From: Guyparkeria halophila
Lineage (GTDB): Bacteria; Pseudomonadota; Gammaproteobacteria; Halothiobacillales; Halothiobacillaceae
Assembly: GCF_034479635.1 (NCBI RefSeq)
Contig: NZ_CP140153.1
Span: 1,123,501 to 1,187,500 of the forward strand
Direction: 5' to 3'
DNA: 64,000 bases
The notes below the pieces were generated by a model that was given only the letters and a program-made list of their open reading frames with translations, made no database searches and had not been told where the DNA came from. A program made the position numbers and the translations under genes. Positions 1 through 27,916 of this stretch are shown one piece after another (the first letter of the stretch is position 1; each line of letters begins with the position of its first letter).

Positions 1-482
1 CCGTCGGCGGTCTCCTTGGCGTGCAGCAGGATGTCCTCGATGCCGGCGAAGTACTTCATCGGGTTGGACAGGGCGGTGCCGCCGAGCAGTTCGCCGCTAG
101 CGAGTTTCGGCAGGACGGTGTCCTTCAAATGCTGGTTGTCGGAGTTCTCGACATACCAGGCCACGGCGTCCTGGCACCAGGTCATGAAGCCGGTGGACAT
201 GCACTCGGCCGAGATGCGGTCCATGTCGTCGATGGCCGCGGCGATATCCATGCCGGCCGGGTTCTGCGAGGAAAGGTGGTGGCGATAGGCCCCGGCTGCA
301 CCGATTTCGTGCAACAGGTCGGCAGGGTATTCGCCATGGTCGATCGCGATCACCTTCGGCTTGAGCGCGCGACGGATGACCGTGTCGAGATCGGCCGGTG
401 CCTCGGATTTCAGAAAGCTCGGCACAGCGGGTGGTGCCGCATTCGGTCGAGCCGCCACGGGGTCGTGGGTAGCGAGGTTCAT
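1..482 (-). CDS. Acyl-CoA dehydrogenase-family flavoprotein (SfnB-like), N-terminal part only
   Basis: An open frame runs from the ATG at 482 to the window edge without a stop (160 codons), so the C-terminal part is missing. A GGAG Shine-Dalgarno lies 8 nt upstream of the ATG. The visible part matches the N-terminal helical and start of the middle domain of acyl-CoA dehydrogenase/DszC-type flavoproteins: a short leader, then helices, then the stretch GELLGGTALSNPMKYFAG, where this superfamily begins to form the flavin and substrate pocket. In sulfur-related members (SfnB, DszC) the fold works as a flavin-dependent monooxygenase or desulfurizing enzyme. The gene follows an OsmC-family gene by 54 bp in the same direction and is probably co-transcribed. 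Family is fairly secure; the SfnB-like subfamily and any sulfur role are inference. Confidence 0.7.
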   Translation of the reverse strand, partial: MNLATHDPVAARPNAAPPAVPSFLKSEAPADLDTVIRRALKPKVIAIDHGEYPADLLHEIGAAGAYRHHLSSQNPAGMDIAAAIDDMDRISAECMSTGFMTWCQDAVAWYVENSDNQHLKDTVLPKLASGELLGGTALSNPMKYFAGIEDILLHAKETAD

Positions 483-536
483 GGAATCATCTCCGAAAGA
501 GGGCCCGGACGTACCGGGCCGTTGACGTCGCGTCGA

Positions 537-1100
537 TCAGGCGAGATGGCAGGAGAGATCGACCGGGCGGGTCATGGTGTTGGCCACCGGTGACCACTTC
601 TCGGCGGTATCCAGCAGGTCCTGCAGGTCTTTGTCACTGATCGGGTCGACCGTCTCGACGTCGAAGTAGACGCGGATGGCGGTAAAGCCCAGCGGCTTCG
701 ATTCGTCGAGATCGCCGGTGCCCCAGACGGCGGTGACGTTGATGTCCGCTTCCATGTTCAGCTCGAGCTTGCTGATCTTGATCTGGCGGGCGGTGGCATT
801 GGCGTGCACGCCGACGGCCAGACAGGCGCCCAGGGCGGCCAGGGTGGCCTCGGACGGGTTCGGGGCGGTGTCGTCGCCCAGCAGGTGCGGCGGCTCGTCA
901 ACCACCACCGGGTCGAGATCGCGGATGTAGGTCAGGTTGCGAAAGCGGCCTTCGCAGACGGTCTTCGCCTTGAGTGTGACCACCGCGTCCGGGTTGGCCT
1001 TGCCCTTCTCGCTCAGCGCCTTGAGGCCGTCGGCATCGATTTCCTTGATTGCCTGGCGGATGCAGGACGGGGCGACGGGTTGGGCGGTTGTTGTGCTCAT
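537..1100 (-). CDS. OsmC-family protein lacking the usual second catalytic cysteine
   Basis: 187 aa, with GGAG 9 nt before the ATG. The OsmC/Ohr fold is indicated by the N-terminal helix, the PNPSEATLAALGACLAVGVH segment carrying the first conserved cysteine (C93), and a C-terminal alpha/beta half ending in KWSPVANTMTRPV. In peroxidatic OsmC/Ohr enzymes the second active-site cysteine sits in a CPxxN-like motif. Here that position is S170 (SPVAN), so the classical dithiol peroxidase mechanism looks unavailable. A remote C184 near the terminus could substitute, but that is speculative. The gene is first in an operon with the downstream flavoprotein and is preceded by a sigma-54-type promoter candidate. 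The physiological substrate is unknown; a sulfur or persulfide role would fit the neighbour but is not shown. Confidence 0.85.
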   Translation of the reverse strand: MSTTTAQPVAPSCIRQAIKEIDADGLKALSEKGKANPDAVVTLKAKTVCEGRFRNLTYIRDLDPVVVDEPPHLLGDDTAPNPSEATLAALGACLAVGVHANATARQIKISKLELNMEADINVTAVWGTGDLDESKPLGFTAIRVYFDVETVDPISDKDLQDLLDTAEKWSPVANTMTRPVDLSCHLA

Positions 1101-23070: not shown

Positions 23071-23850
23071 TCACAAACGGCAGAGGGCAAGGCGGAATTC
23101 GATGTCCTCGTGGACCTGACGGGGGTGGCCGTTCTCGCGGTCCAGCGTCATGAAACGCACGGTGAAGCGGTGCTTGCCGGCGCTGATTTCGGGATAGCAG
23201 ATAGTGTCGTCGTCGATCATCACGCGCAGCAGTTGGTAGGGCGTGGCGCTCTCGATGCTCTGCTGCAGGAAGCCTTCCTCGGCCACCACCGACATCGTAT
23301 CGACGCTGTTGCGGATCAGGCTGATGACCAGTTCGTTGGCCTGGCGGATGTCGGTAAACGGCTCGAGCCATACCGCGATGTCCTCGCGGCGCTCGGCGTC
23401 CGGCAGGCTGAGCCAGTAGTGCAGGCCGGGGATGTCGAATTCGCACAACGCGCCCGGAATCGAGGCACGCTGGCGCACGGCATTCAGCAGCTCGTGGGTC
23501 TTCAAGTGCGCGCCGGGCTGGGCGTGATAGCCGTGCAGTGCCTTGATCAGGCGATTCTGCTGATCGAGCAGGGCATTGAGCTTGTCGCGATCGACGCCGG
23601 GCGAATCCGGCACGCTCATCAGTCGGCCCTGCTGGCGCTCGAGCTCCTTGATCAGCTCGCGCTTGATGTCGATGCGCGAGAGCACATCGGCGGCTTCAAG
23701 CAGCAGCAGCACGGTGCAAAGCGTGTCATCCCGCGAGCTGCTCTGCAGATGATGATCGATGCGGGCGAACAAGTGGTCGAGCCTGAGGCAGGCCCGGATC
23801 CGTTCGTTCAGTGGTTGCTCGTAGATTTTCAGAGGTGCGTTCCGATCCAT
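23071..23850 (-). CDS. zapD: Cell division protein ZapD
   Basis: 259 aa, matching the ZapD/YacF (DUF1342) family over its whole length: an all-helical N-terminal domain (YEQPLNERIRACLRLDHLF) and a beta-rich C-terminal domain (YWLSLPDAERREDIAVWLEP). ZapD crosslinks FtsZ filaments and promotes Z-ring assembly. In E. coli it sits with coaE; here it heads a cluster with minC, minD and minE. The ribosome site is weak. It is preceded by the inverted-repeat element at 23890-24157. Confidence 0.95.
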   Translation of the reverse strand: MDRNAPLKIYEQPLNERIRACLRLDHLFARIDHHLQSSSRDDTLCTVLLLLEAADVLSRIDIKRELIKELERQQGRLMSVPDSPGVDRDKLNALLDQQNRLIKALHGYHAQPGAHLKTHELLNAVRQRASIPGALCEFDIPGLHYWLSLPDAERREDIAVWLEPFTDIRQANELVISLIRNSVDTMSVVAEEGFLQQSIESATPYQLLRVMIDDDTICYPEISAGKHRFTVRFMTLDRENGHPRQVHEDIEFRLALCRL

Positions 23851-23889
23851 TGGATGCCGATGCGAGTCGAGGGTGTGCCGGCCGTCTTA

Positions 23890-24157
23890 GGGAAACTCTG
23901 CACGAATGCCATGCCGCTCTGGCCAAGCGAGCCGTTCGTGATCAAGGCGTGTCGTCGCCAGCGTGCCGGTGGCCACGTCAAGACGACGCAACGCCGAGCA
24001 AGGGCGGCTCGCCTGGCCCCGCAGGGCGAGCCTTGATCCGGGCATCTGCTGTGTTGCCGTCCTTGGAAAGGGAATAACCCTTCCGCGTCGGGCGGCCGCC
24101 TTGCATCTGCCCGGCTCAAGGCTCGCAGAGCGGTATGCCATTCGTGCAGAGTTTCCC
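23890..24157. mobile_element. MITE-like element with 32-bp terminal inverted repeats
   Basis: The ends 23890-23921 and 24126-24157 are inverted copies matching at 30 of 32 positions; both begin, reading inward, with GGGAAACTCTGCACGAATG. The 268-bp interior has no credible reading frame but holds further dyads (GGCTCGCC/GGGCGAGCC near 24013-24032, AAGGGAATAACCCTT near 24067-24081). No obvious target-site duplication. The structure fits a non-autonomous insertion (MITE), or less likely a structured RNA or intergenic repeat. It fills most of the 370-bp gap between zapD and metH. Confidence 0.6.
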
Positions 24158-24220
24158 TGCATTCTCAGCCTGCTTGCGGGATAACTCAACTCCCGCGAGC
24201 AGGGGGCTGCCGCGTGACGG

Positions 24221-27916
<3,696 letters not shown>

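Follow-up and report, generated by a model that had tools for sequence, protein, structure and literature searches.

Here we show that the 266-bp element lying between metH and zapD in the window (the whole 64,000-nucleotide stretch of Guyparkeria halophila DNA that was analysed) carries a folded core that recurs, with near-constant internal spacing, in other families of the Gammaproteobacteria. MITEs, to which the element belongs, are non-autonomous transposons that are commonly regarded as what is left of a single parent IS after decay. Taken by itself, the window element is a MITE of IS5 type and of an ordinary kind; what sets it apart is a folded core that recurs across the class as a module joined to ends of several kinds, which goes beyond what the earlier note, made from the letters alone, had proposed. 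The explanation we prefer, with a probability of roughly 0.75, is that of an IS5-type MITE moved in trans, with a folded two-arm core, exchangeable ends and arms that act as single strands; the enzymes, the cause of the arrangement and the function of the arms we infer from sequence.

The element proper, from GGAA to TTCC, spans positions 23891-24156 (266 bp, without assigned strand) as delimited by its inverted repeat and the target-duplication test; it contains no transposase gene and is too short for one, while some open reading frames overlap it. Its terminal inverted repeats (23891-23921 on the + strand and 24126-24156 on the - strand) form the two sides of stem P1. If letters of the target are included the repeat covers 23889-23921 and 24126-24158, 33 nt that are 94% complementary, which bears out the 30 matches in 32 positions first claimed for it. 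The internal dyads, also noticed at that time, are part of a single three-way junction into which the whole element folds on either strand, at -179.9 kcal/mol on the + strand against a shuffled mean of -114.7 (z -12.2) and with a z of -12.5 on the - strand; on each strand 0 of 200 shuffles were as stable. Within the junction lie hairpin arm A (23930-24008, +) and, 28 nt away and inverted relative to it, hairpin arm B (24037-24116, -), both identified by covariation and by R1, a covariance model built from one arm. R1 gives them 72.6 bits (one arm A sequence belongs to the 31 from which the model was built) and 73.1 bits respectively, and the next best place in the 64-kb window reaches 14.1 bits. 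Rfam yielded no match above the gathering score for the window element or for ten loci of other genera, every weak match falling far below that score.

The ends had been said to match far beyond chance, and a search of the organism's own genome (2,452,836 bp in one contig) with the 17-nt end, allowing up to two mismatches, confirmed it: 58 places were found, 28 forward and 30 reverse, against 0 in the backward control, so that the sequence is multicopy rather than single. At least 44 copies with both ends were read as loci; 26 measure 264-271 bp, 17 are shorter (42-198 bp) and one is longer (332 bp). The arm model recognises two arms in all 26 long copies and in the 332-bp copy, one arm in all seven copies of 161-198 bp, a partial arm in the 126-bp copy and no arm in the nine copies under 100 bp. 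A BLAST search with the whole element matched 13 of 57 genomes, counting the own one; 10 of these belong to the 11 genus genomes, of which the one without a match (G004) is 64% complete. In a pattern search of named genomes all 67 stretches recovered came from Guyparkeria or related Halothiobacillus/Halothiobacillaceae. There was no match in 72,556 plasmid records, nor in viral contigs searched with one exact arm pattern. The genes around 69 full-length copies, nearly all from Guyparkeria, showed no clear orientation (26 tandem, 12 convergent and 12 divergent, with 11 copies inside a called ORF and 8 undetermined), the comparison gaps in the window being 13 tandem, 11 convergent and 14 divergent as judged by a crude ORF caller. 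The two bases after GGAA vary among the own-genome copies (GG, AC, CC, TC, GC, GA) but agree between the ends of an individual copy for 36 of the 44; at these two positions related genera have GG, CC and GC in their IS5-type loci. One end-sequence copy in genome G024 (L043) lies close to a contig edge and runs into what looks, by its motif, like the coding end of an IS3-type transposase.

Immediately outside GGAA/TTCC the flanks follow the consensus C/T-T-A-G/A (YTAR), and they agree with each other at a level of 0.57-0.64 in the four positions that a 4-bp duplication would occupy; other spacings are near background, apart from spacings 2 and 3, whose outermost position reaches 0.48-0.51. Exact direct 4-mers flank 29 of 134 distinct copies, which were taken from the fetched loci of several genomes and include some orthologous to the same insertion, where 2000 permutations averaged 8.0 and never exceeded 17. 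When the left 4-mer is non-palindromic, direct repeats occur in 18 of 103 copies against a permuted 2.9 (maximum 9). Exact inverted agreement of the flanks (14/134, or 3/103 for non-palindromic left 4-mers) also exceeds the permuted level, which is what one would expect of a near-palindromic target. Restricting the count to the own genome, so that orthologues play no part, leaves 7 exact repeats in 44 copies against 2.8 (60 of 5000 permutations reach 7), and 4 in 33 with non-palindromic left 4-mers (CTGG, TTTG, TTAC, ATAA) against 1.0 (68 of 5000 permutations). This excess is modest, in keeping with a family in which many of the copies would be old. The window copy has a left 4-bp target site TTAG of YTAR type (23887-23890, +), placed by the rule from the family-wide flank test, and CTGC (24157-24160, +) at the expected place of its duplicate; the two have only one or two of four letters in common, and its own target duplication is decayed or cannot be seen. 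An IS630 MITE was first suspected from the CTAG/TA flanks. Because the direct repeats are 4 bp long, with non-palindromic ones among them, the family was reassigned to the IS5 type, and a 2-bp TA duplication without a longer direct repeat, the mark of IS630, is not what the Guyparkeria copies display.

The own genome yielded neither an IS5-type (DDE_Tnp_1) nor an IS630-type (DDE_3) transposase, and the proposal that the mover is encoded elsewhere thus holds in a strong sense. Within the genus DDE_Tnp_1 is present in 1 of 11 genomes (G002), where it has different terminal repeats, and DDE_3 in 0 of 11, while DDE_3 is present in 3 of 27 genomes of the family. The search for a full-length IS with the same ends had a divided outcome: no autonomous IS with the exact GGAANNTCTGCACGAAT end was recognised in the genus or in 369 genomes of the class, a sample that took in 3 of the 11 genus genomes, but IS5-family elements with similar ends are found in other genera. 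Thus L147, from another genus of Halothiobacillaceae, is bounded by GGAAGGTCTGATCAAT ends and flanked on either side by TTAA, and its transposase of 331 aa scores 298 bits with the NCBIfam IS5 family (cut-off 140); at L150 and L154, CTAG or CTAA precedes GGAACCTCTGATTGAATCC. The outer 10 nt, GGAANNTCTG, are alike in the element and the IS5-type ends, whereas the inner part differs, reading CACGAAT in the element and GATCAAT, GATTGAA or GATCTAT at the IS5-type loci. The exact end pattern occurs in nine of the 369 class genomes, namely the three of the genus, G172 (24 places) and five with a single place, for which a second end was found in the locus in 0 of 5 cases. G172, which belongs to another family, has elements of the same plan; seven loci were read and no IS was seen in them, and DDE_Tnp_1 is absent. 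Since no transposase with the exact ends was found, the mover is lost, rare or outside the genomes and the two transposase families searched.

The core of the element consists of two hairpin arms of about 78 nt, inverted and 28 nt apart, which resemble each other once one of them is read on the opposite strand. In each there is a variable stem, with CAAGGCG on its 5' side and GCAAC(G/A)C on its 3' side, and CAAGGCG / GCAACGCC is the conserved motif pair. The stems of this core change in sequence yet stay paired. When an RNAalifold structure is fitted to 64 main-subfamily copies, standard pairs fill 6760 of its 7034 cells in those same copies, and many columns vary; columns 43/119, for example, are C-G in 27 copies, T-A in 34, G-C in 1 and otherwise in 2. 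In a set of 31 arms whose alignment was not structure-fitted, 87.4% of cells are paired against 63.8% after shuffling, both sides change in 25 of 30 pairs, and the covariation score is 0.628 against 0.207 shuffled and at most 0.160 for structures slid by 1-3 columns; fold and register decided which of 51 diverse candidates were kept, two of those kept being shifted by 6 nt, and this choice favours pairing. For 124 arms (96 distinct) of other genera the figures are 96.1% against 65.1% and a score of 0.801 against 0.212, in an alignment made by the model itself and therefore leaning towards pairing and towards the pair types on which it was trained. The covarying stems bear out the suggestion of a family of structured repeats, which the earlier note had set beside the MITE as an alternative and which holds together with it, the MITE being upheld by many copies, terminal inverted repeats, target duplications and site polymorphism.

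The same core, with its near-constant spacing, is found in other gammaproteobacterial families. R1 matches 108 of 369 sampled gammaproteobacterial genomes (86 of 272 genera) at E<=1e-3, 64 genomes (54 genera, 49 families) at E<=1e-8 and 44 genomes at E<=1e-10, these E-values being rough owing to a short calibration, and gives no match in 261. At 64 different loci of other genera, several of them from the same genomes, of which several give many arm pairs, 50 of 51 adjacent arm pairs are ordered + then -, and the gap between the arms is 28 nt in 41 pairs and 29 nt in 6. The sole exception to the order is a pair spanning two neighbouring elements in L316 (G148), where two arm-bearing elements stand abreast with arm hits at 251-328 (-), 407-485 (+) and 514-590 (-). 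L314, L322 and L334 duplicate L290, L296 and L297 and were excluded from the counts of arm layout, of TA flanks and of base pairs in all different arms given below. Element length in the other genera tabulated is 261-267 bp save in three cases (281, 283 and 335 bp), in a table that includes those duplicates. Longer copies were also seen at L132, L315, L319 and L350, and in G172 the arm-bearing element at positions 1501-1838 of L255 has an extra inserted stretch.

As the sequences themselves make plain, one folded core has been combined with several kinds of ends, which probably belong to two transposase superfamilies. Ends were read in 18 of 20 two-arm loci and in further copies. IS5-type ends are present in G172, G371, G254 and G240; unlike ends in other genera read GTGT(A/C)CTG or GTGTAGTG, CTAAGACAAACGAT, TTAACCCGGCAA, GTACTC(C/T)(G/T)TC, CTAACCCGAACAC and GTACCGTGACCC. 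The G282 end, GGGCACCTCTATTC, has the same first nine bases as L145, a locus bearing DDE_Tnp_1. Across 35 different copies in six non-IS5 end classes TA stands on both sides in 24 and a 4-bp direct repeat in 0, while the same tally for IS5-type ends gives exact 4-bp repeats in 3 of 6, all TTAA; as TTAA and TA are palindromic, these small flank sets are not by themselves proof of duplications. L144 is an IS630-family element (NCBIfam IS630, 282 bits) with CTAGTGTAGTGCTTCA at both ends, and its first 12 bases are those of an arm-bearing element of G227. No other TA-flanked end class agrees with an IS630 beyond seven or eight bases, the extent to which two IS630 loci in G222 resemble other end classes. 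DDE_3 genes are present in 5 of 18 host genomes checked; none was found in G110, G233, G227 or G051, and in G047, which bears the IS630-matching end class, the one DDE_3 gene showed no matching ends. In a one-arm element of another genus (L311) the first 16 nt, GGAAGCTCTGATCTAT, are identical to those of L146, a Halothiobacillaceae locus with an IS5-type transposase sequence. L311 (G137) and L310 (G351), from one genus, are one-arm MITEs with IS5-type ends, and L310 lies directly upstream of an ORF that begins like what we take to be a chromosome-segregation SMC protein.

A folded single strand tolerates G-U pairs and tolerates A-C much less, while in double-stranded DNA the two are mirror images of each other. 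Reading each arm of other genera on its own strand, we counted 138 G-U against 15 A-C in all different arms and, with arms more than 70% alike removed but the duplicate loci included, 28 against 2; the model used to find these arms is itself biased towards pairs. For Guyparkeria, events were counted in the 64 copies nearest the window copy, of 88 distinct full-length ones, leaving out pairs with under 70% Watson-Crick cells (under 60% in the counts for other genera and for the 31 arms). Watson-Crick losses counted on the tree in the Guyparkeria arms went to G-U 101 times and to A-C 64 times (p 0.005), an excess that two other sets of pairs reproduce at p 0.02-0.03. For arm B alone the ratio is 51:38, which is not significant (p 0.20), and for the 31 arms after 85% redundancy removal it is 11:7 (p 0.48). 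The terminal stem in Guyparkeria has 19 G-U and 18 A-C and hence no bias. Because G-U exceeds A-C in the arms and not in the terminal stem, the data suggest that the arms, each in its own orientation, and not the ends, are selected as folded single strands. The single strand in question would be RNA or single-stranded DNA, which the G-U data do not separate. For RNA there is precedent in processing, passages of PMC2229807 and PMC10969869 describing RNase III cleavage of NEMIS and an effect of RNase E on ERIC.

According to the model we favour, this multicopy family, with its matched terminal repeats and 4-bp YTAR target duplications at the flanks, would be cut and pasted in trans by an IS5-family transposase acting on GGAANNTCTG-type ends, as both the ends and the target suggest. 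The conserved folded core between the ends, its two arms facing each other on opposite strands, would be what endures of the parasite, and the ends would serve as interchangeable adapters that fit it to the transposase at hand; elsewhere in the class the same core appears partly with other, TA-flanked ends, one class of which is IS630-like. Each arm would act as a folded single strand, either as RNA in a readthrough transcript or as single-stranded DNA during replication, and the inverted layout would give every strand one correctly oriented arm 5', whichever the direction of insertion. We put at even odds the wider proposal of a transposase-independent module with a conserved core of about 200 nt that swaps its ends, using IS5-type enzymes here and IS630-type enzymes there, while the arms keep a constant job as RNA or single-stranded DNA hairpins by which insertions are tolerated or copying is promoted.

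At the site itself, zapD (23071-23850, -; Pfam ZapD) lies downstream of the element and metH (24221-27916, -; Pfam B12-dependent methionine synthase domains) upstream. The two genes are adjacent in all 11 genus genomes, and comparison of the junction, as first advised, showed that the element is not conserved throughout: it is present in 4 (G000, G002, G003 and G007), reduced to a shrunken, degenerate remnant between the same flanks in G010, and missing in 6 (G001, G004, G005, G006, G008 and G009). As G001, which is without the element, nests among element-bearing genomes in the tree of the flanking genes (branch support 0.97 and 1.00; its pairing with G002 is weak, at 0.17), the simplest reading is an ancient insertion followed by loss or by replacement through recombination, and some of the six element-less sites are probably losses. 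By this reading the window copy is old and vertically inherited, and it shows no clear duplication; its flanking 4-mers, in the direction from metH to zapD, are GCAG and CTAA, while those in G002 are CAAG and CTAA. Between orthologues the terminal stem shows paired changes, CTC/GAG in G000 against CTT/AAG in G003 and G007, and arm B reads GAG/CTC in G000, GCG/CGC in G003 and GTG/CGC, with a T-G pair, in G002 and G007. Single changes that break pairs occur too, for example in the terminal stem of G002. Upstream of zapD stands a promoter-like pair of hexamers, TTGAGT-17-GAGAAT (24161-24189, -), so described from its conservation in the genus, where the hexamers are kept in 10 of 11 genomes; a scan for consensus promoters and terminators called nothing, this pair included. 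The element begins 4 bp downstream of the second hexamer, and if the pair is a promoter the zapD transcript would have its 5' end at the edge of the element or just within it, and would include the whole element or almost the whole.

That position, together with the paired changes in the orthologous copies of G000, G002, G003 and G007, is what speaks for a cis-acting RNA, a 5' UTR regulator of zapD rather than a mobile element. The earlier note had reasoned that a single copy with no related IS, conserved in all relatives, would point that way, and this is not the combination we found: dozens of copies lie elsewhere, and the element is missing from the junction in six of 11 genus genomes and decayed in another. 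As the primary explanation the regulator is already contradicted and hardly credible, though the element may have a secondary local effect on zapD. A second reading keeps the MITE and makes its fold a by-product, with template switching that mends long palindromes leaving stems complementary without function. It would suit the many double changes with few single-side intermediates, of which columns 43/119 are an example, the terminal stem without bias and the weakness of the bias in the Guyparkeria arms. Template switching, however, leaves unexplained the invariant motif positions, the near-fixed spacing of 28-29 nt, the likeness of the arms on opposite strands and the excess of G-U in other genera, and we judge this reading unlikely.

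It might also be supposed that the arms of other families are convergent hairpins and not one module, for stem sequences are far apart between families and the R1 E-values are rough. Against this, motif positions, arm length and the +/- layout are common to them, the gap is 28-29 nt in 47 of 51 pairs and the total length is mostly 261-267 bp; nothing else in the 64-kb window exceeds 14.1 bits, and 261 of 369 genomes have no match. Convergence therefore seems to us very improbable. We give scant credence, too, to a REPIN- or BIME-like repeat moved by a RAYT (REP-associated tyrosine transposase). Such repeats resemble ours as inverted pairs of hairpins, spread widely through the class and present in several to many copies per genome, but here there are terminal inverted repeats and target duplications of DDE type, and the arms, at about 78 nt and without a GTAG-like head, contrast with the shorter REPs. 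REPs are described as 20-40 bp in PMC3733652, and most of those tabulated with RAYTs in PMC2817692 start with GTAG; as short hairpins headed by GTAG or a similar sequence they differ from our arms in both motif and size.

Among known systems, the IS5-type MITE favoured here is closest to the IS5 family (NCBIfam NF033581) and its derived MITEs, with which it has GGAANNTCTG-type ends and 4-bp YTAR targets in common, as at L147; it differs in having no transposase gene and in its inner end, CACGAAT. The arm elements of other genera with TA-flanked ends like CTAGTGTAGTGC of L144 recall the IS630 family (NCBIfam NF033545) and its MITEs, whereas the ends of the window copy are of IS5 type and the duplication seen in its family is 4 bp long. 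RUP, an IS630 MITE of pneumococcus, measures 107 bp according to PMC2229807. Correia/NEMIS and ERIC, as portrayed in PMC2229807 and PMC10969869, are likewise small repeats with terminal inverted repeats and stable RNA folds. In the comparison given in PMC2229807 the bacterial repeats other than CIR form one stem-loop with paired 5' and 3' ends and no arms, whereas the terminal stem here bears two inverted arms. The CIR repeats of Caulobacter/Brucella do have two arms and a linker; the table in the same source lists them, with a footnote, as lacking terminal inverted repeats and gives them a GANTC motif, in contrast to the terminal repeats and target duplications seen here. REP/BIME/REPIN sequences with a RAYT share the inverted hairpin pairs and differ in size, in head sequence and, judged by the ends, in transposition mode. 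No description of the two-arm module was found in the open-licence literature searched; insertion sequence, transpos-, MITE and mobile are all absent as terms from the main text of the Guyparkeria pangenome paper (PMC9032823), and the Thiomargarita paper (PMC4853749) describes other MITEs.

An interior fold that is kept while the ends differ across many families raises the question of what a MITE needs besides its ends, and whether a folded interior contributes to its success can be tested. R1 meanwhile makes it possible to annotate a class of repeats that has no name in Rfam or in the open-licence literature searched.

One further structure lies beside the window element. The dyad TGCTTGCGGGA / TCCCGCGAGCA (24171-24201) extends across the first of the two promoter-like hexamers that precede zapD, and may be either a terminator of metH or an operator; it occurs in varied form in several relatives, both with and without the element.
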